DNA of 64,000 bases from an uncultured Hoeflea sp. (GTDB taxonomy: Bacteria; Pseudomonadota; Alphaproteobacteria; Rhizobiales; Rhizobiaceae). A model generated the notes under the pieces. The model ran no database searches, was not told where the DNA came from, and was given only the letters and a program-made list of their open reading frames with translations. The DNA lies in contig NZ_CANMVK010000001.1 of the NCBI RefSeq assembly GCF_947501405.1, positions 1,612,001 through 1,676,000 of the forward strand. The letters run 5' to 3'. Each line of letters opens with the position of its first letter. The first letter of the stretch is position 1. Positions 37,804-54,241 of this stretch are shown one piece after another. Made by a program: the position numbers and the translations under genes.

Positions 37804-37861
37804 TTTATATGTATTGAGCATAACAGCAAGACATTTTGTGGTGGAAACGGGAGGATACCCT

Positions 37862-38881
37862 ATGAAAAGCAGGATTTTGCGTATGTTTGCGGTGCTGGCG
37901 GGGTGCAGTGTCGCGTTTCCGGTCATCGCGCAGGCCGACGGCCCGGTGGTAGCGCTGTCGAACTCGTTTTTCGGCAATACCTGGCGGCAACAGATGGTTA
38001 CGGCCTTCGAGGAAGCCGGCAATCAGGCGAAATCGGAGGGATTGATCGGCGACTATATTGTCATGAACGGCGATGGATCAGTGGTGCAGCAAAACAGCCA
38101 GATGGCTGAACTGATCCTGCGCGGCGTAGACGTGATCGCCATCAACGCGGCCTCCGAGACCGCGCTCAACGGCGTCATCGAAAGCGCCTGCCAGGCTGGA
38201 ATCACGGTCATCAGCTTCGATTCGGTCGCCTCGGCTCCCTGCAATTACCAGCTCAATTTCGATTTCAAAGGCTACAAGGCCGCCCAGGCCCGTGCAGCAC
38301 TCGACATGGTCGGCGGCAAGGGCAACGCCATAATCGTGCGCGGAGTGGCGGGCTCGGCGCCCGATGAAGCCATGTATGCCGCCCAGCAATTGGTGCTGGC
38401 GGACTATCCGGACGTCAAAGTGGTCGCCGAAGTCTACGGGCAGGCAACCGCGGCCACGGCGCAAAGCGCCATCGCCAACGTGCTGCCAAGCCTGCCGCGG
38501 GTCGATGTGGTGCTCGCCCAGGGTGGCAGCGACGACATCGGCATTGCCCAGGCCTTCCAGCAATATGGCGGCGAATATGCTGAAAAGATGCCGGTGATCG
38601 AAGGCGGCGGCGGCACCGATTTTGTCAAATGGTGGGCCGAGGAAAATGTCAAGAACGGCTACCAGACGGTCTCGATGAACACCACGCCGGGTATTGGCGG
38701 TGCGGTGCTTTGGCTGGCCGCAGCGATGCTGAAAGGCCAGGAGGCACCCAAGGAAATGATCATGCCGGTGGCAACGGTCGATGCGGACAATCTGCAGGAC
38801 TACGCCAAGCTTCCGGCGGGGCAGATCATCAGTCCGAGCTATTCCATGCAATGGGTTCAGGATAACCTGCTGAAGAATTAA
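37862..38881 (+). CDS. Periplasmic sugar-binding protein of ABC importer 1
   Basis: A 339-residue class I (ribose-type) periplasmic binding protein. The signal peptide is MKSRILRMFAVLAGCSVAFPVIAQA, with cleavage near residue 25. The mature part has the two-lobe pattern PVVALSNSFFGNTWRQQM, LILRGVDVIAINAASETAL, GITVISFDS and DVVLAQGGSDDIGIAQAF. GGGAGG lies upstream of the ATG. The following ATPase-permease fusion and permease complete the importer. The ligand is unknown; given the neighbours it may be apiose, an apiose-containing compound or another plant sugar. Confidence 0.93.
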   Translation: MKSRILRMFAVLAGCSVAFPVIAQADGPVVALSNSFFGNTWRQQMVTAFEEAGNQAKSEGLIGDYIVMNGDGSVVQQNSQMAELILRGVDVIAINAASETALNGVIESACQAGITVISFDSVASAPCNYQLNFDFKGYKAAQARAALDMVGGKGNAIIVRGVAGSAPDEAMYAAQQLVLADYPDVKVVAEVYGQATAATAQSAIANVLPSLPRVDVVLAQGGSDDIGIAQAFQQYGGEYAEKMPVIEGGGGTDFVKWWAEENVKNGYQTVSMNTTPGIGGAVLWLAAAMLKGQEAPKEMIMPVATVDADNLQDYAKLPAGQIISPSYSMQWVQDNLLKN

Positions 38882-38887
38882 TGTTCC

Positions 38888-38939: not shown

Positions 38940-41369
38940 ATGGCGGACGATCTGAACACGGCGCAAGCCGACGCTTCCGGCACACCCATTGTTTCGCTCG
39001 AAGCCATCACGAAAGTCTATGGCCCCACACGTGCCAATGACGGTATCGACCTGGAGATTGCGCCCGGCGAGGTGATCGGCCTGGTGGGCGGCAACGGTGC
39101 CGGCAAATCGACATTGATGCGGATTCTGTGCGGCGTCGAAACGCCCGATGCCGGTCGTATCATGGTCGATGGATCGCTGGCGCCACCGTCCTATGGCGCC
39201 GCAGAAGCCCAAGCCCACGGCATCCGCATCGTGCATCAGGAACTGTCGCTGTGCACCAATCTGACGGTCGCCGAGAATTTCTTCATCGAAGCCCCCGGGC
39301 ACACGCGCGCGACGCCCGGATGGCGCGCGCCGTTTCGCGCCCGCGCTAGCGCGGCGCTTGAACGGGTGTTTCCCGGCCACGGCATCGACCCCGACGCTCT
39401 GGTCGGCACGCTGACCATTGGCGAACGGCAATTGGTGGAGATCGCCCGCGCCATCGCCACGCCGGGGGTGCGGCTGATCATTCTTGACGAGCCGACGTCC
39501 TCGCTGTCGGCCAACCGTTCGGCGCAACTGATCTCCTTCGTCCATGATCGCGCCGCCGAGGGGCTGGCCTTCATCTTCATCAGCCACAAGCTCAAGGAGA
39601 TCACCGAAATCGCCACATCCGTGGCGCTGTTGCGCAATGGTCAACTGGTGTGGCGCGGCCACGCCAACGACACATCCGCCGATCACCTGATCGACCTGAT
39701 GGGCGGCAGCAAGCAGGCGCTGTTCGACAGCCCGTCCGGAAATGCGGGCCTTGAAGAAAAGGTCATCGAAATCGGCGCGCCCTATTCAGACACGCCGATT
39801 GCCTTGGCCCGCGGTTCGATCATCGCTCTGGCGGGGCTGGAAGGAAGTGGGCAGCAGCCATTCCTGCGCGCACTCTACCGCAACGGCCAAGGCGCCAAAC
39901 GGCGACTGCCGGCGGCCTTTGTGGCGGGTGACAGGCAGAAGGAAGGCGTGTTCCCGCTCTGGTCGGTGCTTTCCAACATCTCGATCGGCCGGCTTGCCGG
40001 CCGCCAGGCGCTCGCGACGGTCGACCGGCGCACCGAACTTGAGGCGGTGGAAACACCAGCGGCGCAGTTGCGGCTCGACGCCGCGCGGTTTGACGCACCG
40101 GTGCTCGAGCTAAGCGGCGGCAACCAGCAAAAGGCGCTCGTGGCCCGGGCGCTGGTCGGCCAGGCACCGCTGATCCTGCTTGATGACCCCACTCGCGGCG
40201 TCGACATCGCCACCAAGCAGGATTTCTATCAGTTGCTGCGCCGGATCGCCGATGCCGGGCGAACCATCATCTGGAACACGACGGAAGACGCCGAGCTGGT
40301 GTTTGCCGACCGGGTGCTGGTGTTTGCCGGCGGCCGGATCGTTGCAGATTTAACCGGCGCCAACATCACCGCTTCGGCCGTGCTCGCGGCCTCCTTCGCA
40401 AGCGCCGACAAGGCGGCCGAAACCGAGATGACGCCGTTTGCGCGCATCGGCCGGTTGCTGACGGCCCTCTTGCCCTATGCATCTCTGGCAATCGTGCTCG
40501 GTCTTATGTTCAATGCCAATCCGATCACCGCCACGTCTTTCGGCCTCGATCTGCTGTTGATGCCGGCGGTGGCGCTGTCACTGATCGCAGTGGCGCAGAT
40601 GTTCATCATCGGTGGCAGCGAGATCGATCTGGGCGCCGGGGCGTTTGCGGCGCTGGTCTCGGTGCTCGCCGCAACAATTCTGTTCGACATCACCATTTTC
40701 GGGCTGATTGCCGTGGCGCTGGCGATTGCCGCCTATTCATCGATCGGCGCGCTGATCCAGATCCGTAAAATCCCTGCAATCGTGGTCACGCTGGGCGCGT
40801 CCTTCATCTGGCTCGGCATCGGCTTTACGATCCAGCCAACTCCGGGCGGCAGCGCACCGGCCTGGGCGCAAGCCCTGGTCAGGTGGAAACTGGGCGGTCT
40901 GCCAACGTCGATACTCTTGATTGCCGGTATCGCGGCTGTGGCGATCATCATCGATCGCACACCCCTTGGAGTGGTGCTGCGCGGTTTCGGCAACAATACC
41001 CATGCCATGCGACTGAGTGGCTGGTCGGCGTTGCGCTATGCGGTCATCCGCTACGCCATCGCCGGTCTGTTCGCAGCCACCGCGGGGCTTGTGCTGACTG
41101 CGATCAACACGGCCTCTGACATCAATTCGGGCAATTCCTACACTTTGCTCAGCGTTGCGGCGGTGGTGATGGGCGGAGCTGCGCTGCTCGGCGGCGTGAT
41201 CTCGCCACTGGGCGCCGTGGTTGGCGCCGTCACGCTCACGCTGATTGGCGCGCTGTTGGGAATGATGAATATTCCGAGCGTGTTCAATCCTGCGACCCAG
41301 GGTCTGCTGCTGCTGATGATCCTGGCGATCCGCAGCCTTTCGATGCGATCGGGGGATGAAACGGGATGA
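38940..41369 (+). CDS. Natural fusion of sugar ABC ATPase and permease
   Basis: An 809-residue protein joining two normally separate subunits. Residues 1-490 are a tandem RbsA-type ATPase. The first half has Walker A GGNGAGKST (50-58), LTIGERQLVEIARAI and LIILDEPTSSLS. The second half has a degenerate P-loop (GLEGSGQQP), LSGGNQQKALVARAL and LLDDPTRGVDI. Residues from about 500 to the end are a RbsC-type permease with eight or more spans, including IIGGSEIDLGAGAFAALVS. No stop or frameshift separates the parts. The stop overlaps the start of the next permease as ATGA. Confidence 0.93.
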   Translation: MADDLNTAQADASGTPIVSLEAITKVYGPTRANDGIDLEIAPGEVIGLVGGNGAGKSTLMRILCGVETPDAGRIMVDGSLAPPSYGAAEAQAHGIRIVHQELSLCTNLTVAENFFIEAPGHTRATPGWRAPFRARASAALERVFPGHGIDPDALVGTLTIGERQLVEIARAIATPGVRLIILDEPTSSLSANRSAQLISFVHDRAAEGLAFIFISHKLKEITEIATSVALLRNGQLVWRGHANDTSADHLIDLMGGSKQALFDSPSGNAGLEEKVIEIGAPYSDTPIALARGSIIALAGLEGSGQQPFLRALYRNGQGAKRRLPAAFVAGDRQKEGVFPLWSVLSNISIGRLAGRQALATVDRRTELEAVETPAAQLRLDAARFDAPVLELSGGNQQKALVARALVGQAPLILLDDPTRGVDIATKQDFYQLLRRIADAGRTIIWNTTEDAELVFADRVLVFAGGRIVADLTGANITASAVLAASFASADKAAETEMTPFARIGRLLTALLPYASLAIVLGLMFNANPITATSFGLDLLLMPAVALSLIAVAQMFIIGGSEIDLGAGAFAALVSVLAATILFDITIFGLIAVALAIAAYSSIGALIQIRKIPAIVVTLGASFIWLGIGFTIQPTPGGSAPAWAQALVRWKLGGLPTSILLIAGIAAVAIIIDRTPLGVVLRGFGNNTHAMRLSGWSALRYAVIRYAIAGLFAATAGLVLTAINTASDINSGNSYTLLSVAAVVMGGAALLGGVISPLGAVVGAVTLTLIGALLGMMNIPSVFNPATQGLLLLMILAIRSLSMRSGDETG

Positions 41370-42388
41370 GACCGCAGCTTGCGTCATTTCTTCATGCCAA
41401 CCGCTGGGTCTGGACGGCAATTGCCGTCGTGCTGTTGTGGCTGCTTTTGTCGACCGTTACCGGCCGCTGGAGTCTTGCGAGCCTGAGCGGCATCGTCACT
41501 TCGGCGTCGTTCCTGACGCTGGTGGCGCTGGGTCAGATGCTGGTGGTGACGACCGGGCGCGGCAACATCGACCTGTCGGTGAGTGCGGTGATGACCTTGA
41601 GCGCCTTTCTGGCGCTGCTGGTCATCCAGGGCGACGATGGCCGGATCTGGATCGGCCTTGCCGCAACACTGGCGTTGGGTGCAGGGATCGGACTGGTCAA
41701 CGGCTTTTTGGTTATCGGGCTGCGCATTCCGGCCATTATCGCCACCCTGGCGACCGGCTACATTCTCGCAACGGCCGCGCTGATGGCCAATGCGGCAGTG
41801 GTTGCGCCCAAGGTCAGCCCCGGTCTGCGCTGGGTCGCCACCGGACGGATTGCGGGGGTGCCGGTGATCATCCTTGTGACACTGCTTGTGGTCATCGCCA
41901 TCGCCCTTGTCCTGCGTCGCAGCGTTTTCGGCCGGCAATTGTCAGCCACCGGTCAAAACCGGACAGCCGCCGCACTGGCCGGTGTGCCGGTCAACCGGGT
42001 GCTGATGACCGCGTTTGTGGCAAGCGCAATGCTGGCCTCGCTGACCGGGCTTATTCTCGGCGCCTATGTCGGCGGTGCGTTTTTGGAGCTGGGCCAGCCC
42101 TATCTGCTGCAATCAGTGGCGGCAGTGGTTTTGGGCGGCACCTTGATCACCGGCGGCCTGGCGAGCGCCTTCGGCGCATTCTTCGCCGCCATCCTGCTCA
42201 TCCTCATGGTGACAATCATGCAGATCATGGGCTTGCCCCGGGGAACCCAGGACATGGTCCAGGGCGCAGCCGTGATCCTGGTGCTGGCCTTTGCCTCCCG
42301 GAGCGCAATGACGCGCGCATCCCCGGCCGGACCGGCGAAAGGTGATGGGAATAACACAAACCAATCCGCCGCGACATCCAAATCCTGA
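41366..42388 (+). CDS. Sugar ABC permease of importer 1
   Basis: A 340-residue RbsC-like permease (branched-chain amino acid and ribose permease family) with about nine spans. The signature region VTTGRGNIDLSVSAVMTLSAFLALLV and the C-terminal AVVLGGTLITGGLASAFGAFFAA are typical. It starts inside the stop codon of the fusion gene, so it is translationally coupled to it and probably pairs with its permease half. It ends 15 bases from the convergent operon. Confidence 0.93.
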   Translation: MRPQLASFLHANRWVWTAIAVVLLWLLLSTVTGRWSLASLSGIVTSASFLTLVALGQMLVVTTGRGNIDLSVSAVMTLSAFLALLVIQGDDGRIWIGLAATLALGAGIGLVNGFLVIGLRIPAIIATLATGYILATAALMANAAVVAPKVSPGLRWVATGRIAGVPVIILVTLLVVIAIALVLRRSVFGRQLSATGQNRTAAALAGVPVNRVLMTAFVASAMLASLTGLILGAYVGGAFLELGQPYLLQSVAAVVLGGTLITGGLASAFGAFFAAILLILMVTIMQIMGLPRGTQDMVQGAAVILVLAFASRSAMTRASPAGPAKGDGNNTNQSAATSKS

Positions 42389-42403: not shown

Positions 42404-43393
42404 TCAGGCATTCTCCAATGGCCGGATGGTGCGCTTGAGCCGGCTGAGAAGACGTTTCTCGCGCAGCCCGTCGGCAAACACCGCCAGGAAAATGATGATG
42501 CCCTGCATGATCGGCTGCAGGTAAAGATTGACCCCGGTAAAGACCAGACCGAGCTTGACCGTCTGGATCAGGGTTGCGCCCACCACGGCGCCGAAGGCCG
42601 AGCCGACGCCGCCCATCAGGCTGGCGCCGCCCAGCACAGCCGCGGCGATCACATCGAATTCACGCCCCTCCCCGAATGCCACATCAAGCCTGCCAATCTG
42701 GGCAATCAGCACAAATCCCGAAATGGCGGCGCAAACCGAGCAGATCACATAAACCCGCGCCTGGAGCCATTGGGTGTTGATGCCCGACTTGCGGGCCGCC
42801 TCGGGATCATTGCCAAAGGCGTAGATCTGGCGGCCGAAAGTGGTGTGCGCCAGGATGATGTGGGCGATCAGCGCGACAATGGCGAAAATGACAATCGGCG
42901 TCGGAATTCCGACAACGCTCGACAGGCCAAAGCTGCGCATGTCTTCAGAGAAGTCGAACTGGGTGGAACTGGTAAGCCAGGTCCCGAATCCGCGGAACAG
43001 AAACAGAGATGCCAGCGTGACGATGAAGGGAATGACCCGGAGCCAGGCAACGAAAAGGGCATTGATACCACCGAGCACCACACCGGCCAAAACGGCGACG
43101 ACAAAGCCGAGCCACACCGGCAATCCATATTCGCGCATGGCGAAACCGGCAATCAGCGGCGCCAGGAACATCACCGAACCAACGGAAAGATCAATGCCAC
43201 GGGTGAGAAGCACGAAGGTCATCCCCAGTGCGGCAATCCCGATAAATGAGGCTTGCTTGACGATGTTGGCCAGGCTCTCGGGCATCAAAAACCCGGGCGA
43301 TTGCAGGCCGAAATACAAAAGCACGCAGGCAAAGATCAGATAGGTGGCGTTGCGCACCGCAAAATCGAAGGCGCGATCTGTGGATGGTTTCAT
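42404..43393 (-). CDS. Sugar ABC permease B of importer 2
   Basis: A 329-residue RbsC-type permease with about nine membrane segments and the motif LLTRGIDLSVGSVMFLAPLIAG, plus the C-terminal AAAVLGGASLMGGVGSAFGAVVGA. It is the last gene of the nine-gene minus-strand operon. Its start overlaps the ATPase stop by four bases. It probably forms a heterodimer with the permease at 44,886. Confidence 0.94.
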   Translation of the reverse strand: MKPSTDRAFDFAVRNATYLIFACVLLYFGLQSPGFLMPESLANIVKQASFIGIAALGMTFVLLTRGIDLSVGSVMFLAPLIAGFAMREYGLPVWLGFVVAVLAGVVLGGINALFVAWLRVIPFIVTLASLFLFRGFGTWLTSSTQFDFSEDMRSFGLSSVVGIPTPIVIFAIVALIAHIILAHTTFGRQIYAFGNDPEAARKSGINTQWLQARVYVICSVCAAISGFVLIAQIGRLDVAFGEGREFDVIAAAVLGGASLMGGVGSAFGAVVGATLIQTVKLGLVFTGVNLYLQPIMQGIIIFLAVFADGLREKRLLSRLKRTIRPLENA

Positions 43394-44889
43394 GCCGCCT
43401 GCTCCCGGAATGACATGGCCAGAATGCGCTCCTGGTCGAAATCTCCGCGAGGGAACTCGCCCATGATCTCGCCCCGGTTCATCACCACAATGCGATCAGC
43501 GACACCCATAAGCTCCTCGAGCTCGGAGGAAATCATCAGGATGCCGCCGCCGCCGGCGGCCAGACGGTCGACGAGGGTGTAGATTTCATACTTTGCACCG
43601 ACATCGACACCGCGGGTCGGCTCGTCGAGAATGAAGAGCCTGGGATGTTCGAGCTGCCATTTGCCGATCACCACCTTCTGCTGGTTGCCGCCTGAAAGCG
43701 CCTTGACCGGTTGCCGGCTGATGTCGCCGGCCTTGATCGACATGTCCTGTCGCGCAGCTTCCGTGCGCTCCAACAGGCGATCGCGATCAATGAGAAACAA
43801 TGGCGGGCGCCCGAATTCGCTGATCGCCACCAAAGCGAGATTGTCGGCGATGGTGGCATCCATCATCAGCCCCTCCTCGCGCCGGTTTTCGGTAACGAAC
43901 GCCATTCCAGCAGCGATGCGGGCGCGTGCGCCGGCGGCCAGTTCGGCATCGTTTAAAAGCACCGTGCCCTGGTCGCAGGGATCAAGCCCGAACAGGATCC
44001 GCGCGAGTTCGCTGCGCCCCGAGCCCATCAATCCGAACAGGCCGACAATCTCGCCGTCGCGCACAGTGATCGAGACATCCTTGAGTACGCCCGGATGGGT
44101 TAGGCCACGGGCCTTGAGTACCGCGGTGTCTCCCGGTTGGCCGGTGCGTTGGGGAAAGAGGCCGCCCAGATCGCGCCCGATCATCGACCGGATCATCCGC
44201 GGAATCGGGAAATCCGCTTCGGGCCCCTGATCGACCAATTGCCCGTCACGCAGCACGGCGATGTCGTCAGCGAGCCGCTTCACGTCACCGAGAATGTGCG
44301 AGATGTAGATGATGGTCCGGCCTTCAGCGCGCAGGGTGGCGATGGTTTCGAACAATCGCTCGGTCTCACGCGGCGTCAGCGAGGTGGTCGGCTCGTCAAA
44401 GATCAGCAGGCTTGCCTCATTGTGCAACGCCTTGGCGATTTCTACCAGTTGCCGCTCGCCCGGCGACAGATGGCCGACTTCGGTTGCGGGATCGACATCA
44501 AGGGAAAGCCTGTCGAGGATTGACCGGGCGCGCTCATTGATCGCGCGCCAGTCGATCAACCCCATGCGCCGCGGAAAGCCGTCGATATACATGTTTTCGG
44601 CGACCGACAGATTGGTGAACAGGTTGAGCTCCTGGTGAATGAAGGCGATCCCGGCGGCGCTGGCATCAGCGGCTGATTGCGGACGGTAGGGTTTGTCGCG
44701 CCACAGCATGTCTCCGGCGCTCGGAGCCACAATGCCGCCAATCATGTTCATCAGCGTGGATTTGCCTGCGCCGTTCTGGCCGATCAGCCCCAAAAGCGAG
44801 CCCTGACGGACCCCTAGCGACAGATCGCTGACGGCCGGGACGCCGAACCAGGATTTTCCCAGATGGCGAAGGGTTAGAAGATCACTCAT
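43390..44889 (-). CDS. Sugar ABC ATPase of importer 2
   Basis: A 499-residue tandem ATPase of the RbsA/MglA family. The first half has Walker A GQNGAGKST, LSPGERQLVEIAKAL and LLIFDEPTTSLT. The second half has GLMGSGRSELARIL, LSGGNQQKVVIGKWQ and LFILDEPTRGVDVG. It overlaps permease genes by four bases on both sides. It drives import of the ligand bound by the periplasmic protein at 46,129. Confidence 0.96.
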   Translation of the reverse strand: MSDLLTLRHLGKSWFGVPAVSDLSLGVRQGSLLGLIGQNGAGKSTLMNMIGGIVAPSAGDMLWRDKPYRPQSAADASAAGIAFIHQELNLFTNLSVAENMYIDGFPRRMGLIDWRAINERARSILDRLSLDVDPATEVGHLSPGERQLVEIAKALHNEASLLIFDEPTTSLTPRETERLFETIATLRAEGRTIIYISHILGDVKRLADDIAVLRDGQLVDQGPEADFPIPRMIRSMIGRDLGGLFPQRTGQPGDTAVLKARGLTHPGVLKDVSITVRDGEIVGLFGLMGSGRSELARILFGLDPCDQGTVLLNDAELAAGARARIAAGMAFVTENRREEGLMMDATIADNLALVAISEFGRPPLFLIDRDRLLERTEAARQDMSIKAGDISRQPVKALSGGNQQKVVIGKWQLEHPRLFILDEPTRGVDVGAKYEIYTLVDRLAAGGGGILMISSELEELMGVADRIVVMNRGEIMGEFPRGDFDQERILAMSFREQAA

Positions 44890-46070
44890 CCCGAACGCTC
44901 CCGCATCAGCCGGGTTCGGAACACATCCAGCAACGCCGCACCGAGGATCACTGCGCCCTTGACCATATCGACCTGAAAGCTCGACAGGTTCATCAGGTTG
45001 AGCGTGTTGGACAGCAACACGAAAAACAGCACGCCGAAAAAGGTCCAGAGGATCTTCGCCTTGCCGCCAAACAGGCTGGTGCCGCCAATCACCACCGCGC
45101 CGATGACGTCGAGCAGGAAGGTCCCCTCACCCAGCGTCGGCCGCCCCGCTTCAAGCCTGGCCGAGTAAAGCAGGGCGCCAATGGCGGCGCAGGCTGCTGA
45201 CAGCATGTAAACGGTGACGATGATGCGGCGGACCGGGACGCCGGAGATTTCTGCGGCCTTGCGGTTGATGCCGATCGCCAGCACATAACGGCCGAACACG
45301 GTGCGATTGAGCAACAGATGCATGGCGATCGCCAGGCTGACGGCGATGACCATCGGATAGGAAATGAAGGAATATATGGTGCGCCGCGCGATCTGCGATT
45401 CTTCCTTGGCGCCGAAATAGACCGAGACGATGTCGCCCTTGCCCAGCCGCACATATTCGGCGGGAAGCCGGGCGATGTTTTCCGACTGGGTCAGATAGAT
45501 CGCCAGCGCGCTGAAGGTGATCATGCTGACCAGAGTGACCATGAAGGCCGGCATGTTGAGCATGGCCACCGCCGCGCCGTTCAAAAGACCGATCAGCATG
45601 GCGACCATGATCATAACGAGGATGGCTGCGAGCAGGCTGCCGGTCATCCCGTTCAAAAGCCCGCCGTCCTCGGCGATCAGAACGCCCCAGATCGGCGCAT
45701 TGGACAGCACAACCGGATTGGCGACCGTGGCAATCAGCGCTGCGCCGATGACCGATGTCATGGCGACAACCGAACCCTGGCTGAGATCGATGCCGGCGAT
45801 CGCCAGAACGAAGGTCTGGCCAACGGCCACGGCCAGCAGCGGCCACATGTTCGACATCACGTTGACGATGTTGGCCGGCAACAGCAGCGTCGGCAAAAAC
45901 GGAGCCAGCACCGCCACATAGGCCAGCGACATGTAGAGAACGAAGTAATCGGACAGCACCAGATCAGCAAGCCGTCCGACAAGCTTCCTTGGATTTGGCC
46001 GCGGCGGCTCATCGGATGGGCGCGATACTGCGACCTCGGCGGCCGGATCCCTGGCGGGCATAGTGTTCAT
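44886..46070 (-). CDS. Sugar ABC permease A of importer 2
   Basis: A 394-residue permease of the same family, longer than its partners because of an N-terminal cytoplasmic stretch of about 40 residues rich in Pro and Arg and an inserted loop around residues 205-235. The family motif is AIAGIDLSQGSVVAMTSVIGA, and the C-terminal AVVIGGTSLFGGKAKILWTFFGV is present. It follows the binding protein gene after a stem-loop spacer of 58 bases. Confidence 0.94.
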   Translation of the reverse strand: MNTMPARDPAAEVAVSRPSDEPPRPNPRKLVGRLADLVLSDYFVLYMSLAYVAVLAPFLPTLLLPANIVNVMSNMWPLLAVAVGQTFVLAIAGIDLSQGSVVAMTSVIGAALIATVANPVVLSNAPIWGVLIAEDGGLLNGMTGSLLAAILVMIMVAMLIGLLNGAAVAMLNMPAFMVTLVSMITFSALAIYLTQSENIARLPAEYVRLGKGDIVSVYFGAKEESQIARRTIYSFISYPMVIAVSLAIAMHLLLNRTVFGRYVLAIGINRKAAEISGVPVRRIIVTVYMLSAACAAIGALLYSARLEAGRPTLGEGTFLLDVIGAVVIGGTSLFGGKAKILWTFFGVLFFVLLSNTLNLMNLSSFQVDMVKGAVILGAALLDVFRTRLMRERSG

Positions 46071-46128: not shown

Positions 46129-47133
46129 CTAGTTTTTCAGGAAACCCTCAGACAGCAGGACACAGCCCCACATGTCCATCTCGCGGTCTGCGAGATTGGC
46201 GGAGGTGAGCGCAAAACCGGGGTCTTCGATCACCTCGTTGGGCTGGGCATTGCCTTCCTCGACGGCCTTTAGAATTGCCGTCATCGCGCTGTCAGCCTCG
46301 AAGTAGAGATCCTGAACGCCGGTGGCGGAGACAAAGCCGTCCTTGATGAGCTGACAGGCGGTCGCATCGCCATCCAGCCCGGCTAACGGAATGTGGCCCT
46401 CTTCGCCCGCCTTCTTCCACATGCCACGCGGCTCAAGCACCGAGCGGATGGTGGGGAACAGGAAATCGGACGAGGTGAACATCATATCGATTTCCGGATT
46501 GGCCGTAACCGCCGCCTCGAGATTGGCGAGCGCGGTTGCGGCGTCCCATTCGGAAGCGACCTCGATCACATTGAAGCGGTCCTCGTGCTTGTTGATTGCG
46601 GCGTAGAACCCGTCCTTGCGGCCAACCGCATTGGGATCACCCAGATCGCCGACGATGATCAACGCATTGAGCTTTTCATCGCCGGAGGTGCTTTCCAGCG
46701 CCTGGCCGACGACGAAATCCGTGGCCTGTTCGGCGATGGTGGCGTTGTCGGCCACGACAATGATGCCCTTGGACAGATCCGACGGCGGCCGGTTGAAGAC
46801 CGCGATCGGAACGTCGGCGGACTGCGCCTCATTGACGATGGTCACAGCGCTTTCGCCATCCTGGGGAATGATGATGATCCCATCGACACCCTGCGCGACG
46901 CAGTCACGCACCTGTTCGAGCTGTCGGTTGGCGTCCTCGTTGGCGTTGCGCTCGATCACCGTGTGACCGGCCTCGGTCAGCGTCGTGGTGATTGCCTTGT
47001 GTCCCGCGATCCAGAATTCCGTCTCCAGATCCTGAAACGCGAAACAGATTGTTGCGGCCTGGGCGCTGGTTGCATAACCGGCTCCCGCAATGGCCAGCAA
47101 TGCGGCAGTGGCTGTGTTGATCAACAATTTCAT
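46129..47133 (-). CDS. Periplasmic sugar-binding protein of importer 2, probably for D-apiose
   Basis: A 334-residue ribose-type binding protein. The signal peptide is MKLLINTATAALLAIAGAGYATSAQA (cleavage about residue 26). The two-lobe pattern follows: TICFAFQDLETEFWIAGHKAI, CVAQGVDGIIIIPQDGES, VPIAVFNRPPSD and IDMMFTSSDFLFPTI. The ATG has GGGAGG nearby upstream. Because it sits inside the catabolic operon, 33 bases after oiaK, D-apiose or its oxidised forms are the likely ligand; this is inference from context. Confidence 0.94.
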   Translation of the reverse strand: MKLLINTATAALLAIAGAGYATSAQAATICFAFQDLETEFWIAGHKAITTTLTEAGHTVIERNANEDANRQLEQVRDCVAQGVDGIIIIPQDGESAVTIVNEAQSADVPIAVFNRPPSDLSKGIIVVADNATIAEQATDFVVGQALESTSGDEKLNALIIVGDLGDPNAVGRKDGFYAAINKHEDRFNVIEVASEWDAATALANLEAAVTANPEIDMMFTSSDFLFPTIRSVLEPRGMWKKAGEEGHIPLAGLDGDATACQLIKDGFVSATGVQDLYFEADSAMTAILKAVEEGNAQPNEVIEDPGFALTSANLADREMDMWGCVLLSEGFLKN

Positions 47134-47166
47134 AGATACCTCCCATGGTGTGATGAAATGATCGGT

Positions 47167-48534
47167 TCAGGCGTGGCCTGCCGTAGCGGCCTCCTTTCCG
47201 TGGCGGATCAGGCCAAACAGGTTTTCCGGCCCCATCTGACCGCCCTTGACGACGAGTTCGAAGGGCGGTTTGGCGGGGTCGGCGAAATGCACATTGAGTA
47301 GCGGCACGGCAGGCGCGATCTCCGCTGTGGCAGTGACCGCAACCGCACCGAGTTCGGCGGTGGCGTGGCTTGATGTGTCACCGCCTGCGATGACCGCGCG
47401 CGACAGCCCGGAGCGGTAAAGCCCGCCAAGGATCCGGCCGAAGCCGCGGCCCAGTGCCTCCGCGGCGTCCCGGGCCGATTGACCAGCCGCATGCTGTGCC
47501 GCGCGCGCGGCCGCAATGGCCGGGTCTTCCGGCCCGAGAGCGGAATGGATCAACGGGCTTACGCCCCGATCCAGACTTGCCCGCGCCATGCGCTCGATGC
47601 GGGTGCATTCCTCGTTCCAACGTGACGCATCGATAGTAAGGGCCGCATCGATGTGAATGAGATCGAAACCGGCCTTCGCCGCGGCCTCGATCTGGCGCGC
47701 CGTATCAGGCGAACAGGAGCCGGAGAGAACCGCGATCCGGCCCGTTCCCGCAACCTGCTGCGGCGGCGGAGCCCGGTGCCCTGCCGCGTGCCAGACGGCA
47801 ATCAACGCATCCTCGAGACCCTGGGATCCGAGCGCGAACAATTGCGACTTCATCGCCTCGTCCCAAATGACGCCTCCGGCCTCAATCAGCGATGCAGAGT
47901 CCATCAGATCGAAAGAGACGATGCGCGCGCCGCGGGCCCGTTCGCGCTTCAGCGCCGCAGCTCCCTGCCCCGACTGCAGATCAAGGATGGTTACAAGTCC
48001 CGCGGGCAACTCGGTCTGGCATGCCAGGTGACGCACGAGATCGCTCTCATCCATCGGCGTGACCGGATGCACCGACATGGTGGGATGCCGGTCGAGCCGG
48101 GCGATGCCGCCGGGGTGCCGGGCGAACAGGTTGCCGAACACCTGCCAGCGCCCGATCCGCGGCGCGGCCGTCACCAGCGGCGCCCAGTCGCCAATCCCCA
48201 GTTCGGCGGCGCGGCCGATGGAGCCGGTCCCGGGCGCGCTGTCGAATGTCGAGCAAAGCTTGTAGTGCACAAGCGGCGCACCGGTGGCGCGAAGCGCCGC
48301 ATAAATGGCGGGTAAATGGGCGTCCATCCATTCGGGCGGGCGGGTGCGGGCGTCGCCGGCAAAACCAATGCAGCGGCAATGCGAAAAGCGCGACATCAAC
48401 GCCTGATCAGGCAGGCCGATAAACAGCACCGAGGCAAAGCCTGCAAATTCCAGAACCTCCATCACCGAGGCGGCGCCGGTAAAATCATCACCATACCAGG
48501 CGACAAGCGGGCCCTGATCCGGCAGCGGGGTCAT
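47167..48534 (-). CDS. oiaK: 3-oxo-isoapionate kinase, four-carbon acid sugar kinase family
   Basis: A 455-residue protein of the former DUF1537 family. The N-terminal substrate domain starts with the motif WYGDDFTGA (13-21), followed by VHYKLCSTFDSAPGTGSIG. The C-terminal nucleotide domain includes AVIAGGDTSSHATAELG and ELVVKGGQMGPENLFGL. The family phosphorylates four- and five-carbon acid sugars. The neighbouring apiose enzymes make 3-oxo-isoapionate the likely substrate. Its start overlaps the stop of the RuBisCO-like gene by four bases. Confidence 0.85.
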   Translation of the reverse strand: MTPLPDQGPLVAWYGDDFTGAASVMEVLEFAGFASVLFIGLPDQALMSRFSHCRCIGFAGDARTRPPEWMDAHLPAIYAALRATGAPLVHYKLCSTFDSAPGTGSIGRAAELGIGDWAPLVTAAPRIGRWQVFGNLFARHPGGIARLDRHPTMSVHPVTPMDESDLVRHLACQTELPAGLVTILDLQSGQGAAALKRERARGARIVSFDLMDSASLIEAGGVIWDEAMKSQLFALGSQGLEDALIAVWHAAGHRAPPPQQVAGTGRIAVLSGSCSPDTARQIEAAAKAGFDLIHIDAALTIDASRWNEECTRIERMARASLDRGVSPLIHSALGPEDPAIAAARAAQHAAGQSARDAAEALGRGFGRILGGLYRSGLSRAVIAGGDTSSHATAELGAVAVTATAEIAPAVPLLNVHFADPAKPPFELVVKGGQMGPENLFGLIRHGKEAATAGHA

Positions 48535-49781
48535 GTGCCGAACCTTCCCAAAGCCGCAGCCAGTGCCGGGCTTTCGCTTGCGGCCTGTTGCAGTCCGATA
48601 CCGGCCATGGCCGCGTCCCAGGCATCGCGCAGGGAACGGACCCCGCCCTCAGGTCCGTCGGGATGCCCCATAATACCGCCGCCAGCGGCAAAAATCAGAT
48701 CGGCTGTGCCCAGCGCCGCCCAGGTCTCGTGCACCTGCAACGCGGACTGGCCGGAGGAAAACACCGGCATCGCGGTCGCGGGCTGCTCCGCCGTGAGCGG
48801 ACTCATCAATGAGCGAGCCGAGGCGATGACGCTGTCGTCAGGCTCGCAGAACTTGTTCCTAAGCCCGTTGACGTGCAGATGGTCGGCGCCGGCGAGGCGC
48901 CAGAGCTTCGACCATGCCACATAGCTAAAGCCAAGTGCGGGGTGCCGGGACAGATAGCCCCAGCCGTTGCGGTGCACATGCAACGGCAATTCCGCGTGCC
49001 GACGGAGCGCCAGCATGCCGGTCAGGCCGACGGAATTGGCGCTGGCCATGACACAGGTTCCGCCCTGTGCCCGCACCAGATCATGGCGGGCGCGCATCTC
49101 ATCAACCTCGCCCGTCAAGTTGAAGGCAAACATGACCTTTCCGCCGCTGCGTTCGGCATGATCGTTGATCACCCGCATCACCGCGCGCACCCTTTCGTCA
49201 AAAGGGCAATGGGGACCATCGGCCTGCAATTCGTCGTCCTTGATGAAGTCGATGCCGGCTTCGCACAGGGTCTTGACCATATCAGCTGTCCGCTCGGGGC
49301 TGAGGCCGACCGACGGCTTGATGATGGTGCCAACCAGCGGCCTGCCTTCAACCCCCGTCAGTTGCCGGGTTCCCTGAACCGCAAATGCCGGGCCCGGACA
49401 CGCAGCTACAAAGGTGGACGGGAACCGGAGATCCTCCAGTTTCAACCCGGCCACGCATTTGAGTTCAAACAGGTTTCCGGCAACAGCGGCGAGCAGATTG
49501 GGCAGGCTCGGGCCGAAATTGGCCACCGGCCAGGAGATGGTGACGCGGGCGCGGCGGTGCTTCTCCCCCGCCCTGCCCGCACCGGGCAGCGATGGTTTCT
49601 CAACCGGTCCGAGGTCTTCAATATGCTCAACCCGTGCGGCAGCGCGGGCCTTGAGTTCCGGGGTTTCGCCCGGCAGGGCGATGAAGGTTCCGGAGGATTG
49701 CTCGCCGGCAAGCGTGGCCGCCGCCTCCTCAAGCGGATAGGCGGTTTCGAGCGTATAGTCGGCTTCAATCCGGTCCATCAT
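48531..49781 (-). CDS. oiaX: RuBisCO-like protein (type IV), probably 3-oxo-isoapionate-4-phosphate transcarboxylase/hydrolase
   Basis: A 416-residue homologue of the RuBisCO large subunit. The TIM-barrel keeps GTIIKPSVGLS (Lys155, matching spinach Lys175), FIKDDE (Lys181, Asp183 and Glu184, matching the carbamylated Lys201 with Asp203 and Glu204), LHVHR (His270 for His294), SSGQ and AAGGGIMGHPDG. Ser157 replaces the catalytic Lys177, and RNGWG replaces RAMHA, so carbon fixation is not expected. In the apiose pathway two such proteins are known, a transcarboxylase/hydrolase (OiaX) and a decarboxylase. Adjacency to oiaK supports this pathway, but sequence alone does not separate the two. Both neighbours overlap it as ATGA. 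Confidence 0.85.
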   Translation of the reverse strand: MMDRIEADYTLETAYPLEEAAATLAGEQSSGTFIALPGETPELKARAAARVEHIEDLGPVEKPSLPGAGRAGEKHRRARVTISWPVANFGPSLPNLLAAVAGNLFELKCVAGLKLEDLRFPSTFVAACPGPAFAVQGTRQLTGVEGRPLVGTIIKPSVGLSPERTADMVKTLCEAGIDFIKDDELQADGPHCPFDERVRAVMRVINDHAERSGGKVMFAFNLTGEVDEMRARHDLVRAQGGTCVMASANSVGLTGMLALRRHAELPLHVHRNGWGYLSRHPALGFSYVAWSKLWRLAGADHLHVNGLRNKFCEPDDSVIASARSLMSPLTAEQPATAMPVFSSGQSALQVHETWAALGTADLIFAAGGGIMGHPDGPEGGVRSLRDAWDAAMAGIGLQQAASESPALAAALGRFGT

Positions 49782-50815
49782 GGCGCGCCTTTCGCGGAAT
49801 GCTCAGGCGCCAAGGCGCTGCCGGTCCGCGCTGACTCGATGGCCGCAAGCATTATGGCGAGTGTGCCGAGATTGTGAGCGCCTGACGGCTGCGGATTGTC
49901 CCGGCCCGCCAGAACGTCAACGACATGGGATTGAAAGGCGGTTACTGAATCCTGCACCAGATGCCAGGGCCGTTCACCCCAGGCGGGGACGGCCGGATCC
50001 ACATCGGTCTCGCTCACTTCGCCGCCACGATGAAGCCGCAGAACGCATCCCTCCAGAAGCTCAAGCGTACCGCTGGTTCCCTCGATGCGCGCCAGGGTTT
50101 GCGGGAACGGATCGGGGGTAAGGTGGCTGTAGAAACTGCATTCGACGCTGGTCACCGCGCCCGACCGGTGCCGCAGCAACGCGGCAAAGGCATCCTGACC
50201 GCTGACTTTCGGATTGAGTGACTGGGTCTCGCAGGAGACCCGTTCGACCCCGCCGTGGAGGAAAACAGCGAGGTCGAACAGGTGAAGGCCCACGTCGGTG
50301 AGGGCCAGGTCCTGCACCCGGGCGAGATAGGGCTGGTTGGCATAGATATCGAATGCGTGGCGGAAGCTGAGCCGCAGAAAGTGTGGATCGCCGATCGCGC
50401 CCGCGTCGAGTTGCGACTTGAGCGCGCGAAACGGTGCCTGCCAACGGAAATTTTCATGAATGATCAACGGGATCGCCGCCGCTTCGCAGGCCGCAACCAT
50501 GGCGTGACCGTCGGCCAGCGTTTCGGCGAAGGGTTTTTGGCAAATCACTGCCCGGCTATGGCGCGCCGCCAGTTCAACAAGCGATCGATGGGTGGCCACG
50601 GTGGTGGCGATGTCGGTGAAATCGGGCTTGACCTCCTCGAGCATGCGCGCGGCGTCGACATAGGCGGTCGCGCCGAATTCGTCTGCAAAGGCCTGCGCCT
50701 TGGCCGGATCAATGTCGCAGACTGCGACGATGGAGGCCTCCTGCAGTCCGGCCCAGGCCTGCATGTGATTGCGCGCAAAAAAGCCGCAGCCGATGAGCAC
50801 GCCACGCCAGTTCAT
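49778..50815 (-). CDS. apsD: D-apiose dehydrogenase, Gfo/Idh/MocA family
   Basis: A 345-residue NAD(P)-dependent oxidoreductase. The N-terminal Rossmann fold has GVLIGCGFFARNH, the EKP motif appears as CQKPFAETL, and the catalytic region reads DVGLHLFDLAVFL. The ATG at 50,815 is chosen: GGGGGGAG lies upstream, and it makes an ATGA overlap with the preceding lactonase gene. An earlier ATG at 50,842 lacks this. The context (lactonase, apionate oxidoisomerase, kinase, RuBisCO-like protein) makes oxidation of D-apiose to apionolactone the best assignment. Confidence 0.85.
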   Translation of the reverse strand: MNWRGVLIGCGFFARNHMQAWAGLQEASIVAVCDIDPAKAQAFADEFGATAYVDAARMLEEVKPDFTDIATTVATHRSLVELAARHSRAVICQKPFAETLADGHAMVAACEAAAIPLIIHENFRWQAPFRALKSQLDAGAIGDPHFLRLSFRHAFDIYANQPYLARVQDLALTDVGLHLFDLAVFLHGGVERVSCETQSLNPKVSGQDAFAALLRHRSGAVTSVECSFYSHLTPDPFPQTLARIEGTSGTLELLEGCVLRLHRGGEVSETDVDPAVPAWGERPWHLVQDSVTAFQSHVVDVLAGRDNPQPSGAHNLGTLAIMLAAIESARTGSALAPEHSAKGAP

Positions 50816-52449
50816 GACAGCTCCCCCCAGACAATGGCGCATTCCGCGGCGATACTCCGGTTCTTGAAATCGAGGGCATCCCCGCTCAGGTTCGCCGCCA
50901 TTCCGCCACCCTGGCCCTCGATCACGATCAGGTCCTGATCGTGCGTCACCGTAACCGGGCTGCCCGACAGCGCATGCGCATGCCGGATGAGGGCTTCGAG
51001 CGGACGGCCATTCGCGCCGAGCGGACCGTCCGGCATCGCCAATGCGAGGCTTTCCACGCCCGCTTCAGCAGCGGCCGCCAACACGCCAACGGCATAGGCC
51101 GCGGCGAATTCGGTGGATTGACGGGGGTCATCCATGGCCATCGCCATCCTGATACGATCAGGATTAGCGGCGACCGCATCGCCATAGGGGTTTGAGCGCA
51201 TCCCGATTGACAGCAATCCCAGATGCAGCGGCTTGCCCGACGCAATGTGGCGGGCCGAGGCAAAGATATCGGGCAATGCCTCAAGCGTTTGCCGAACCGA
51301 CAAATCATCGGCGGCATGAACGATGGCAGTGTTGCCGAAAGTGACGAAATCCACAGCATCCGGATCCGGCCTGCAGCGATTCAACTCGGTGAAATTGGTG
51401 AGACTTCCACCGCCGATGGCCGCACCGGGAAAGGCTGTCCGCAGCACTTCTAGTCCGGCATGGGGCGGAACATCCGGCCACGGCCCGTCAGGCTGGTGGC
51501 TCTTCAGATAGGCAGCCTGCAAGGCCACGATCCGTTGCGGCGTAAGACCGGCCTGGCTGCACCGGGTGGTCAAGCGCTCGAGATCGTCCTCATCTTCGTA
51601 GACGATTTCGAGCGTGGCCGGGCCATGGACCGCAATTGCTTCAAGATCGGCCGTGGCCGTGTGACCGGAGCAACGGAATTGAACCGGGAGGCCCGCGAAA
51701 TCCGCGAGGGCCGCCGGGGTGGATAGACTAGGCTCATGGGCCAGCATGATCTGCGGCAGCGCACCCTTTATGGTTTGCGCCGCGGCGGTATCGGTGATTG
51801 CGCCATCGTTTGCGCTGGAAAGCGACACACGCACGCGCTGGTGCAAGGTATCGCCGTGCTTGACCGCAAAAGGCCGGGGCCGCGAAAGCGGCCGGCAATA
51901 AGTCTTGTAGGAAGCGTCGGACCAGTTGCGTTGGTCCTCCATCTCGAAGGTTTCGCCTTCCATGGCGATGGACACGCGCACATCGCCGATATCATGCGCC
52001 AGACCGACGATGTCGACTGCCGGCTGTGCAGGACTTATCAGACGGGGAAACTTCACCTGCTTGGTGCCGCCATCGGAATGGGTGATTGTCATCGCCGTGC
52101 CCGCCACGCCTTTGATCGGATGAAGCAGCGTGAAGCCTGCGCGGTTGATCATCATGTTGGCTTCGAACCGGATTTCTACATCCGCCGCGAGGTGACGGTC
52201 ATCCGTCAGTTCGGCGCGGAACGTGCCGGAAAACCGGCCCAAACGGTCAGCAAAATCACGCTCATAAATGTTGGGGCCGGTGCGCTCGGTGACGGTGTCG
52301 ACCAGGCAGGTGCCCCAGTCCGCGTCGCGCACCGGGTAGCTCAGGCCGCGCAGCACTTCGGTCCCGGAGAGGACCACCGTCCGGATATCACCGCCGGCAA
52401 TGACCACCGAAAGGCCGCCATTCAGGAGCGTTGGTTCGCTGCCACCCAT
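50812..52449 (-). CDS. apnL: D-apionate lactonase
   Basis: A 545-residue protein. The N-terminal half is beta-rich and has NRAGFTLLHPIKGVAGTAMT and the highly conserved-looking FEMEDQRNWSDASYKTYCRPL. The C-terminal half looks like a TIM-barrel. These features match my memory of the ApnL family, which hydrolyses apionolactone to D-apionate. No signal peptide is seen, so it acts in the cytoplasm. It lies 13 bases after apnO and overlaps apsD by four bases. Confidence 0.8.
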   Translation of the reverse strand: MGGSEPTLLNGGLSVVIAGGDIRTVVLSGTEVLRGLSYPVRDADWGTCLVDTVTERTGPNIYERDFADRLGRFSGTFRAELTDDRHLAADVEIRFEANMMINRAGFTLLHPIKGVAGTAMTITHSDGGTKQVKFPRLISPAQPAVDIVGLAHDIGDVRVSIAMEGETFEMEDQRNWSDASYKTYCRPLSRPRPFAVKHGDTLHQRVRVSLSSANDGAITDTAAAQTIKGALPQIMLAHEPSLSTPAALADFAGLPVQFRCSGHTATADLEAIAVHGPATLEIVYEDEDDLERLTTRCSQAGLTPQRIVALQAAYLKSHQPDGPWPDVPPHAGLEVLRTAFPGAAIGGGSLTNFTELNRCRPDPDAVDFVTFGNTAIVHAADDLSVRQTLEALPDIFASARHIASGKPLHLGLLSIGMRSNPYGDAVAANPDRIRMAMAMDDPRQSTEFAAAYAVGVLAAAAEAGVESLALAMPDGPLGANGRPLEALIRHAHALSGSPVTVTHDQDLIVIEGQGGGMAANLSGDALDFKNRSIAAECAIVWGELS

Positions 52450-52462
52450 CCCCGCAGCTCCG

Positions 52463-53305
52463 TCAGGTCTTGCCGTGGACGATCAGTTCCGCAGCCTTGC
52501 GAATGACGGCGGGCGAGAGTGCGACGCGCCAGTCATCGCGCATGATCTTGGATTTGCCGAATTCCAGCAGACGCAACGCGGCGTCGGACGGCACCTTGGG
52601 CGAAAAGCCGAACCACATGGCGATTTCAACGTTGAGATGGCCGATCAGGAAATCCTGCGCGGCTTCCCGGGGAATGCCGTATTTCTTCTCGCATTCATCC
52701 ACCGCTTCAACCATCACATCGATCATGCACATGGCCAGCATCTCCGACAGGCCCGGCTCAAGGATCGCCAGTTGCTCGACCGTGACACGGTGGGTCTTGG
52801 TGACCGGCGACCACATCGCCTCGCAGATTTCTGCGCCGATGGCGTAATGCTCTTCCGGTCCCTGCATCAAGGCGCAGACGATCGCCTGTTTGGCCACGCC
52901 GCCATGGTAATCGCGCCGCGCCTCGATCTCGGTTTCATCATTGTAAAGAGGGGGATGGCAGGGATGGCCGATGAAGTAGGTGAGATCCGAGCGGTCCTTT
53001 GGAAGAACGTCCGCATAGGGAGCTGCGGCGTCGAGAATCAACAGCATCGTCCCGGCCGGCAGTTTCGGCGCGATGTCGGCGGCAACCTGGCCGATGAGAT
53101 TGTCGGGCAGCGCCAAGACCACCACGTCGGCGCCCGACAGGCCAACCTCCTCGGTCACCGCGGTGATGCCGGCTTCGGCCAGGCGCTGCTTGCCTGTTTC
53201 GCCGATTTCGATGGCGCGCAAATCATAGCCGGCCTCGAACAACTTCCTGGTGATGCGAAATCCCATCTTTCCGCCGGCACCCAACACCGAAACCGAACGC
53301 TTCAT
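52463..53305 (-). CDS. apnO: D-apionate oxidoisomerase
   Basis: A 280-residue NAD-dependent enzyme of the 6-phosphogluconate dehydrogenase-like group. The N-terminal dinucleotide site is VSVLGAGGKMGFRI (5-18). YFIGHPCHPPLYNDE and the helical C-terminal domain match the ApnO family, which oxidises D-apionate with migration of the hydroxymethyl group to give 3-oxo-isoapionate. It is the first gene of the nine-gene operon, and the divergent TIM-barrel gene starts 91 bases away. Confidence 0.87.
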   Translation of the reverse strand: MKRSVSVLGAGGKMGFRITRKLFEAGYDLRAIEIGETGKQRLAEAGITAVTEEVGLSGADVVVLALPDNLIGQVAADIAPKLPAGTMLLILDAAAPYADVLPKDRSDLTYFIGHPCHPPLYNDETEIEARRDYHGGVAKQAIVCALMQGPEEHYAIGAEICEAMWSPVTKTHRVTVEQLAILEPGLSEMLAMCMIDVMVEAVDECEKKYGIPREAAQDFLIGHLNVEIAMWFGFSPKVPSDAALRLLEFGKSKIMRDDWRVALSPAVIRKAAELIVHGKT

Positions 53306-53356: not shown

Positions 53357-53368
53357 TGGTATGATGAG
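53357..53368 (+). promoter_or_regulatory. Candidate shared operator, copy 2 (TGGTATGATGAG)
   Basis: This matches TGGTGTAATGAG at 37,792 in 10 of 12 positions and includes the half-site ATGGTAT, which fits GntR/FCD-type operators. It lies between apnO and the divergent TIM-barrel gene, where it could control both. Confidence 0.35.
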
Positions 53369-53395
53369 TACACAGAGTCAAGCCCGAGGTTGCAC

Positions 53396-54241
53396 ATGCT
53401 GACGCAGATCGCGTTTTCGACAGTTGTTTTTGACGGGTATTCGTTTGAGGAGGGCATCGCCCTGCTTGCCAAGGCCGGGGTCCGCAATATCGAACCGGCC
53501 TATATCGAGGGCTATACGCCGTTCTCCGAAGACACCTTCACCGAGGCCAAAGGTGCGGCGCTGAAGTCAGTACTGGAGCGACTGGGCGTGCGCGCCCGGG
53601 CTCTGTCAGCCCATATCGACCTTGGCCAGCCAGACAGCCTCGAAAGGTTGCTGCGCCGCGTCGATTTCGCCGCCGGTCTGGGGGTCGCAACGCTGATCTC
53701 CAATGCAACGCGCGCGGACAGGCTTGAAGCTTTTGACGCCACCATCAATACCGCCCTGCCGCTAATGGCCGAGGCGGGAATCGTGTTGGCGGTGGAAAAT
53801 CCAGGCCATGGCGTTGGCGCGCTGGTTCCCGACGGCGCGGCTGGCGCCCGGCTCGTCAGCCGCTATGACAGCCCGTTTCTGCGGCTCAATTATGATTTTG
53901 GCAACGCCCTCACCTATGCGCGCGGCGACATCGATCTCCGTGCCGATCTCAACGCCGCGCTTCCCCATGCCCGGCGTCTCCATCTCAAGGATGTGCGGGA
54001 GCAAAACGGCGATTGGCATTTCTGCCCGATTGGGGACGGCATCGTCGGCTATGGCGGGCGCGTAACCCTCAACGGCGCGGTAAACCAGGCCGGCCTGGCA
54101 GTCGAGCACCCGCTGCGCCTGTGGCGGCCAGGCCGAAGCGACCCGGTGCGCCGCGCCGAGAAGCCCTCAACCGGTGACATCCAGCATGCAGTCGCAAAAA
54201 GCCTGCGGTTCCTGTCGGAATCGCGGATCTTTGAGGACTAG
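53396..54241 (+). CDS. Xylose isomerase-like TIM-barrel protein of the apiose island
   Basis: A 281-residue protein of the sugar phosphate isomerase/epimerase (AP endonuclease 2) fold. Likely metal ligands are Glu in VLAVENPGHGV, Asp in NYDFGNALTY, His in RRLHLKDVR and Glu in AVEHPLRLW. The ATG at 53,396 with GAGG upstream is preferred over the TTG at 53,390. It is divergent from apnO. It may be an isomerase for an apiose-derived sugar or a non-phosphorylating 3-oxo-isoapionate decarboxylase, an activity I recall in this fold; the sequence does not decide. Confidence 0.82.
   Translation: MLTQIAFSTVVFDGYSFEEGIALLAKAGVRNIEPAYIEGYTPFSEDTFTEAKGAALKSVLERLGVRARALSAHIDLGQPDSLERLLRRVDFAAGLGVATLISNATRADRLEAFDATINTALPLMAEAGIVLAVENPGHGVGALVPDGAAGARLVSRYDSPFLRLNYDFGNALTYARGDIDLRADLNAALPHARRLHLKDVREQNGDWHFCPIGDGIVGYGGRVTLNGAVNQAGLAVEHPLRLWRPGRSDPVRRAEKPSTGDIQHAVAKSLRFLSESRIFED

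Follow-up and report, generated by a model that had tools for sequence, protein, structure and literature searches.

A predicted locus for D-apiose import and breakdown by the OiaT branch in an uncultured Hoeflea species, with an ApnO-like dehydrogenase paired to a TIM-barrel protein

The window analysed here is a stretch of 64,000 nucleotides from an uncultured Hoeflea sp. (contig NZ_CANMVK010000001.1, positions 1,612,001 to 1,676,000), and our subject is the locus at 36948-54241 of it, which probably serves the uptake and catabolism of D-apiose by the OiaT branch of a known pathway, in a new variant. At its centre lies a minus-strand operon in which five enzyme open reading frames (ORFs) spanning 53305-47167 are followed by four importer ORFs spanning 47133-42404; throughout 53305-42404, neighbouring ORFs overlap or stand at most 58 bases apart. 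The enzyme ORFs run from 53305 to 52463, 52449 to 50812, 50842 to 49778, 49781 to 48531 and 48534 to 47167, with 4-base overlaps between the genes for the RuBisCO-like protein (RLP) and ApsD and between those for OiaK and the RLP, and a 13-base gap between those for ApnO and ApnL. For ApsD, a start at 50815 is more likely than one at 50842, as judged from the resulting ATGA overlap with the ApnL gene and from agreement with the start of Rhizobium etli ApsD. The initial annotation had described consecutive enzyme genes that overlap or nearly touch, followed by a full ATP-binding cassette (ABC) importer, and both points were confirmed, the importer (binding protein, permease, ATPase, permease) lying beyond the interval 47167-53305 over which the operon had been called complete. 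The five enzymes are indeed all in that interval, but the locus is larger and includes a TIM-barrel gene, a GntR/FCD regulator and a second importer that had been missed. The predicted enzymes are as follows.

52463..53305, minus strand: ApnO-like dehydrogenase of the PGDH_C family (PF16896, 208.4 bits), termed ApnO2, our own name for a clade sister to canonical ApnO; predicted to act as D-apionate oxidoisomerase or as the oxidising half of that enzyme
50812..52449, minus strand: ApnL-like D-apionolactonase (NF049900, 363.5 bits, under the cut-off of 750; 38% identity to R. etli ApnL)
49778..50815, minus strand, ORF to 50842: ApsD-like D-apiose dehydrogenase, Gfo/Idh/MocA family (PF01408, PF22725; 45% identity to R. 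etli ApsD)
48531..49781, minus strand: RLP of the OiaT type by clades, residues and model scores; predicted 3-oxo-isoapionate-4-phosphate transcarboxylase/hydrolase
47167..48534, minus strand: OiaK-like 3-oxo-isoapionate kinase, two-domain, four-carbon acid sugar kinase family (NF042436, 440.7 bits; 39% identity to R. etli OiaK)
53396..54241, plus strand: TIM-barrel isomerase/epimerase-like protein, divergent from the ApnO2 gene (PF01261)

The reference for these names is the cluster on plasmid p42f of R. etli CFN 42 (L083), which contains ApnL, ApsD, an importer, ApnO, DerI (RpiB), LerI (triose-phosphate isomerase family), OiaK and OiaX; in that record only OiaX is so named, and the other names were assigned by family and position. 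Identity to the R. etli proteins is 49% for ApnO, 38% for ApnL, 45% for ApsD, 43% for the RLP and 39% for OiaK. Pfam matches over the five enzyme ORFs are, in order, PGDH_C, none, Gfo/Idh/MocA, RuBisCO large and four-carbon acid sugar kinase, and the best NCBIfam names are ApnL for ORF 2, OiaX for ORF 4 and OiaK for ORF 5, all of them under the curated cut-offs. Best matches of apnL and apnO outside their families had been named in the initial annotation as grounds for refutation, and this applies in part: the ApnL model is the sole NCBIfam match of the ApnL-like protein but its score falls short, and ApnO2 belongs to a separate clade beside canonical ApnO. The ApsD-like protein, which matches PF01408, has no ApsD-specific model among its hits. 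Homology of 38-49% to the R. etli cluster, together with gene context, supports the D-apiose route that the initial annotation had predicted. Like the window, the R. etli cluster combines ApsD, ApnL, ApnO, OiaK, an RLP, an ABC importer and a NanR-type regulator; it differs in that its RLP is OiaX and in that LerI and DerI adjoin. The Rhodobacteraceae strain LCG007 likewise has a cluster of a lactonase, a dehydrogenase, an oxidoisomerase, a kinase and a 3-oxoisoapionate-4-phosphate enzyme, the last annotated as a decarboxylase (EC 4.1.1.121) and compared here by annotation alone; according to its authors the strain grows on D-apiose (PMC11747546). PMC13001218 describes another apiose route, which uses transketolases.

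Related RLP genes keep similar company. We compared 80 loci (L003-L082) on genome contigs, some of them short, that are the best of a larger set. In the stretches read, which reach up to 10 kb on each side of the RLP, OiaK was present in 71, an ApnO homologue in 60, ApnL in 31, ApsD in 26 and a GntR-type regulator in 59. RLP, ApnO, ApnL, ApsD and OiaK occur together in 17 of the 80, and the gene set is therefore not a chance one.

From this gene order and these homologies, the substrate and the individual steps would be the following, the reaction names and chemistry being reportedly those of the 2018 work of Carter et al. One or two CUT2-type importers would bring D-apiose into the cell, where ApsD would oxidise it to a lactone whose ring the ApnL-like enzyme would open, yielding D-apionate. 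Oxidation and migration of the hydroxymethyl group, carried out by the ApnO-like enzyme and perhaps also by the TIM-barrel protein, would give 3-oxo-isoapionate, and OiaK would phosphorylate this product. The OiaT-type RLP would then decarboxylate it, re-add the carboxyl group on the neighbouring carbon in the manner of RuBisCO and hydrolyse the result to 3-phosphoglycerate and glycolate. The glycolate would be handled by glycolate oxidase, a candidate for which is encoded by glcDEF elsewhere in the genome.

The RLP had been credited with OiaX activity giving 3-phosphoglycerate and glycolate. Those predicted products stand, but the name appears to be wrong: the protein is predicted to be of the OiaT type and not OiaX. 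The correction concerns which one of two RuBisCO-like reactions is the likely one for this group of RLPs. OiaX is a decarboxylase giving L-erythrulose 1-phosphate and CO2, and its NCBIfam name also calls it a decarboxylase. It is improbable that the window RLP makes these products, even though the OiaX model (NF042437) is the best NCBIfam match for both the window and the Xanthobacter RLPs and the operon partners would be the same. At a cut-off of 700 bits, the R. etli OiaX passes with 783.9, whereas the window RLP scores 446.2, much like the Xanthobacter RLP (430.9). Identity of the window RLP is 59% to the Xanthobacter RLP (genome G458, presumably X. autotrophicus Py2) as against 43% to R. 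etli OiaX; G458, found in the family of a Xanthobacteraceae locus (L019), has one RLP at E 1e-60 or better. PMC6302742 covers the RLPs of A. radiobacter K84 and Xanthobacter, with two activities, which we read as belonging respectively to the two organisms, in agreement with what is reported of the work of Carter et al.

Phylogeny points in the same direction. A quick tree of 146 rows was built without L001, L002 and, bar five, the short-flank loci L084-L143 (many, not all, of which are the same genes as the longer loci L144-L203). In it the window and Xanthobacter RLPs fall in a 93-row clade (support 97, starred), with all 15 OiaX rows outside (100, starred); the tree program flagged that long branches meet between OiaX and a clade of RLPs at 50% identity, described below. 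A careful tree of 50 rows again groups the window and Xanthobacter RLPs, in a 13-row clade (92/94), and a forced clade of the window RLP with OiaX was rejected by the approximately unbiased test (p-AU 0.0235, for a grouping defined once the first tree was available). When the tree is rooted on form I RuBisCO, via a very long branch, non-OiaX RLPs surround OiaX, and OiaX may be derived from them.

Residues at RuBisCO sites were compared with a form I RuBisCO (L210), with spinach numbering anchored on KDDE and later sites placed on local motifs. All 124 non-OiaX rows retain E60, N123, H294, R295, H327, K334 and S379, together with the histidine two before H327; K175, K201, D203 and E204 are retained in 123 of 123, the window row, counted apart, being identical. 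All 15 OiaX rows are changed at positions 60, 123, 327 and 379, to D, G, Q and G or C, respectively, and none of these OiaX-specific changes is found in the window RLP. At other RuBisCO sites the window RLP has S for K177 and W for H298. We take the compared positions to have the catalytic roles familiar from RuBisCO, including those needed for carboxylation, and we infer that the carboxylation residues would be retained by an enzyme that transfers the carboxyl group and lost by a pure decarboxylase. E60, N123, H327 and S379 thus offer a residue test that would part a carboxyl-transferring OiaT type from a decarboxylating OiaX type.

The rest of the genome, which is 99.99% complete, was searched for enzymes that would serve one branch or the other. 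The OiaX route is said to need LerI and DerI, the latter an RpiB-type isomerase for its product, and the OiaT route not to need them. PF02502 (RpiB) has no match in the genome, whereas 7 of 14 control genomes match; the DerI query likewise found no match in the genome, and its only LerI-like match is triose-phosphate isomerase itself (169.4 bits, cut-off 130.6). A glcD-glcE-glcF run lies elsewhere in the genome, with GlcE at 309.7 bits (cut-off 284) and GlcF at 478.4 (cut-off 333). The OiaT type is called because the OiaX model is missed, the affinity is with Xanthobacter, the RuBisCO residues are kept, the RpiB family is absent and glcDEF is present, and OiaX was rejected as the identity of the RLP on the cut-off, the unchanged residues, the missing RpiB family and the p-AU value.

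The OiaT pathway of Xanthobacter autotrophicus ATCC BAA-1158 likewise has an OiaK-like kinase and an RLP of the same group, with the same RuBisCO residues at 59% identity, and the Xanthobacter locus L193 also has an ApnO beside them. It differs in that its ApnO is canonical and in that no TIM gene, ApsD or ApnL lies in the L193 stretch, which covers about 9 kb on each side. A separate RLP clade (L166, L167, L171, L177, L196-L201) has 47-53% identity, N at position 177 and a distant OiaK-like kinase, and in the stretches read no ApsD, ApnL or ApnO match stands beside it. The closest solved chain, 3nwr, was considered as an OiaT structure and set aside with no claim made: it has N at 177, as do 10 of 10 members of the 50%-identity clade, against S in the window and Xanthobacter RLPs. 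As to its origin, the window RLP is 74-76% identical to Rhodobacteraceae RLPs but 63% to that of Hoeflea sp. YIM 152468 (L066), to which the RLP of another genome of the genus (G203) is identical, and at least three other genomes of the genus are without such an RLP. That the window RLP stands nearer to Rhodobacteraceae than to that Hoeflea suggests transfer. A second RuBisCO-family match in the genome, at G000:C1:802882-803682 (L002), is 28% identical to the window RLP (E 1.2e-17).

The new element of the locus is the pair of ApnO2 and the TIM-barrel protein; the rest of the case is mostly known. What had been annotated as apnO is a PGDH_C protein with the identity to R. etli ApnO given above, but it belongs to a separate clade beside canonical ApnO: in a PGDH_C tree of 102 rows (leaving out the same short loci as the RLP tree and four rows under 250 residues, L055, L175, L180 and L183), the window protein falls in a clade of 11 (100, starred), apart from 91 others, among them the ApnO of R. 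etli and that of Xanthobacter. A TIM-barrel homologue is present at the locus in 11 of the 11 ApnO2 rows and in 6 of the 91 others, these six being second copies in loci that also hold the ApnO2 type; for the remaining ApnO loci, the absence of TIM applies to the stretch read. Fourteen near-fixed positions set ApnO2 apart from the canonical rows; it retains the residues that are conserved across the two groups. A search of the genome with R. etli ApnO gave no second copy at E 0.001.

Because the loci had been drawn by RLP, a search by the TIM protein alone was also made. Across 397 genomes of the order it gave, at E 1e-25, four matches besides that of the window, all four with an ApnO2 (72-82%) in the stretch read, and at three of the four no RLP was found in that stretch. 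One genome (G843) has an RLP of 62%, another (G785) an OiaX-type RLP elsewhere in the genome, and a third (G766) no RLP at E 1e-10 and a kinase match of just 32%. Sinorhizobium meliloti LMB1 (L236) holds both ApnO types, an RLP and the TIM gene in one region. TIM proteins that accompany ApnO2 fall into a single clade of 15 (96/93). Five relatives lie outside it, and their genes stand near dihydroxyacetone-kinase-type or transketolase genes; the loci of these five and L236 are the six read of 20 plasmid records matched. An AlphaFold model of the TIM protein (mean predicted local distance difference test score 91.6) has UlaE and D-tagatose 3-epimerase as its nearest folds, and Foldseek indicates a broad isomerase/epimerase kinship, at 12-20% identity among the 50 rows shown. 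E134, D167, H196 and E237, presumably the usual metal and acid-base set of this fold, are invariant in 20 of 20 sequences.

The TIM protein may be a partner isomerase or a decarboxylase, or may serve the entry of another substrate. We propose, tentatively and at somewhat less than even odds, that ApnO2 and TIM form an undescribed two-gene module standing in for canonical ApnO or bypassing it: oxidation and migration would be split between the two proteins, or the TIM barrel would decarboxylate 3-oxo-isoapionate and so provide an RLP-free exit. The module would come with its own importer and regulator and sometimes without an RLP. In a literature search that covered few subscription papers, no title or abstract on the pair, or on the DNA motif described below, was found. 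The exit would make the TIM protein a non-orthologous 3-oxo-isoapionate decarboxylase giving L-erythrulose, a second outlet beside the kinase and OiaT; this is compatible with the OiaT assignment and possible, if rather unlikely. In its favour, G766 has ApsD, ApnO2 and TIM with no RLP found and with the 32% kinase match only, and about 7.7 kb past its TIM gene, after genes for a LacI regulator and a further importer, comes a kinase of the DhaK/DhaL type. DhaK/DhaL also follow related TIM genes on R. tropici and Shinella plasmids and precede them in Pasteurella, and a plasmid of Erwinia groups RpiB, a DhaK-family kinase, a protein of the triose-phosphate isomerase family, a TIM barrel and an ApnO homologue. 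However, the Erwinia TIM barrel does not match that of the window at E 1e-3, and the window genome is without RpiB. The same failure to match led us to reject the TIM protein as an enterobacterial OiaC, which we infer to be a TIM barrel from the Erwinia cluster only. That cluster, on the plasmid of Erwinia sp. E602 (L234), has the appearance of an apionate route that runs through L-erythrulose and needs no RLP.

It is unlikely, more so than the decarboxylase exit, that the locus serves not D-apiose but another branched sugar or sugar acid entering at the ApnO2/TIM step. The importer 1 binding protein is unlike that of R. etli, canonical ApnO and ApnO2 with TIM occur together in six loci, and G785 holds an OiaX apiose cluster elsewhere in addition to ApnO2, TIM and an importer; against this, ApsD and ApnL homologues lie within the window operon, and the genome search gave no second ApnO.

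Several observations nevertheless weigh against D-apiose catabolism by the OiaT branch. The ApnL-like protein scores far below R. etli ApnL on NF049900 (1049.7 bits for the latter), ApnO2 lies outside the canonical ApnO clade, and G766 has ApsD, ApnO2, the TIM gene and importer 1 though no RLP was found. D-apiose is a presumed ligand of importer 1, whose binding protein is only 24% identical over 233 residues to that of the R. etli cluster and would not be its orthologue. OiaK is under the NF042436 cut-off of 700; R. etli OiaK, at 473.2, fails this cut-off too, which therefore tells little. For the RLP, the 13-row clade of the careful tree is not starred, the residues common to non-OiaX RLPs may be ancestral, and the Xanthobacter RLP is read as the characterised OiaT on the presumed identity of G458 with X. 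autotrophicus Py2. LerI and DerI are each absent from all 80 related loci in the stretches read, and this is weak evidence by itself and was dropped as proof, since just 3 of 15 OiaX loci carry LerI and 3 of 15 DerI. GlcD, finally, reaches 462.2 bits against 567.9 and is under both GlcD cut-offs.

Importers, regulator and predicted operators complete the locus.

46129..47133, minus strand: importer 1 periplasmic sugar-binding protein (PF13407)
44886..46070, minus strand: importer 1 permease A (PF02653)
43390..44889, minus strand: importer 1 ATPase with two ABC domains (PF00005 in two stretches)
42404..43393, minus strand: importer 1 permease B (PF02653)
36948..37715, minus strand: GntR/FCD regulator (PF00392, PF07729; NanR-type model NF003011, 290.2 bits, cut-off 260)
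37862..38881, plus strand, ORF to 37799: importer 2 binding protein (PF13407), start chosen by GGGAGG and a signal-like N-terminus
38940..41369, plus strand: importer 2 fused ATPase-permease (PF00005 in two stretches, PF02653)
41366..42388, plus strand: importer 2 permease (PF02653)
53357..53369, plus strand: predicted operator TGGTATGATGAGT in the apnO2/TIM intergenic region, exact motif match
37792..37804, plus strand: predicted operator TGGTGTAATGAGT in the gntR/importer 2 intergenic region, exact motif match
47146..47158, plus strand: possible weak operator in the intergenic region of oiaK and the gene for the binding protein (2 mismatches; alone not significant)

The sequence TGGTRTRATGAGT occurs in exactly two exact copies in the window, at 37792 and 53357, in the two divergent promoters; if up to two mismatches are allowed, the window has six sites (1.75 on average in shuffles), and three of the six fall outside the locus. 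Of 148 related loci (2.75 Mb), 70 contain the motif TGGTRTRATGA, at 104 sites in all, against a mean of 1.1 and a maximum of 20 for 200 letter-permuted motifs. Gene calls are available for the loci of 98 sites, and 85 of these are close to where a cluster gene starts. The motif was first noticed in the window and then counted, over 148 of 236 loci with short and duplicate ones left out; the loci are related and the sites not independent. Of the three TIM loci that have no RLP, L217 and L218 lack it. The GntR regulator, 46% identical to the regulator of the R. etli cluster, would bind TGGTRTRATGA and thereby act at both divergent promoters. The motif recurs across apiose loci and, like the enzyme pair, is directly testable.

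The TIM gene, the GntR/FCD regulator and importer 2 recur next to RLP genes of the same group in other genomes, homologues of importer 2 being found in L006, L009, L014, L031, L043, L064, L075 and others. The ATPase and one permease of importer 2 are fused in one protein of 809 amino acids, with 50-59% homologues beside RLP genes. The binding protein of importer 1 has 75-82% homologues beside these enzymes in L008, L035, L037, L067 and L080. Beyond the TIM gene, at 54550-54727, lie tRNA-Gly and tRNA-Tyr genes, a possible integration spot for the locus.

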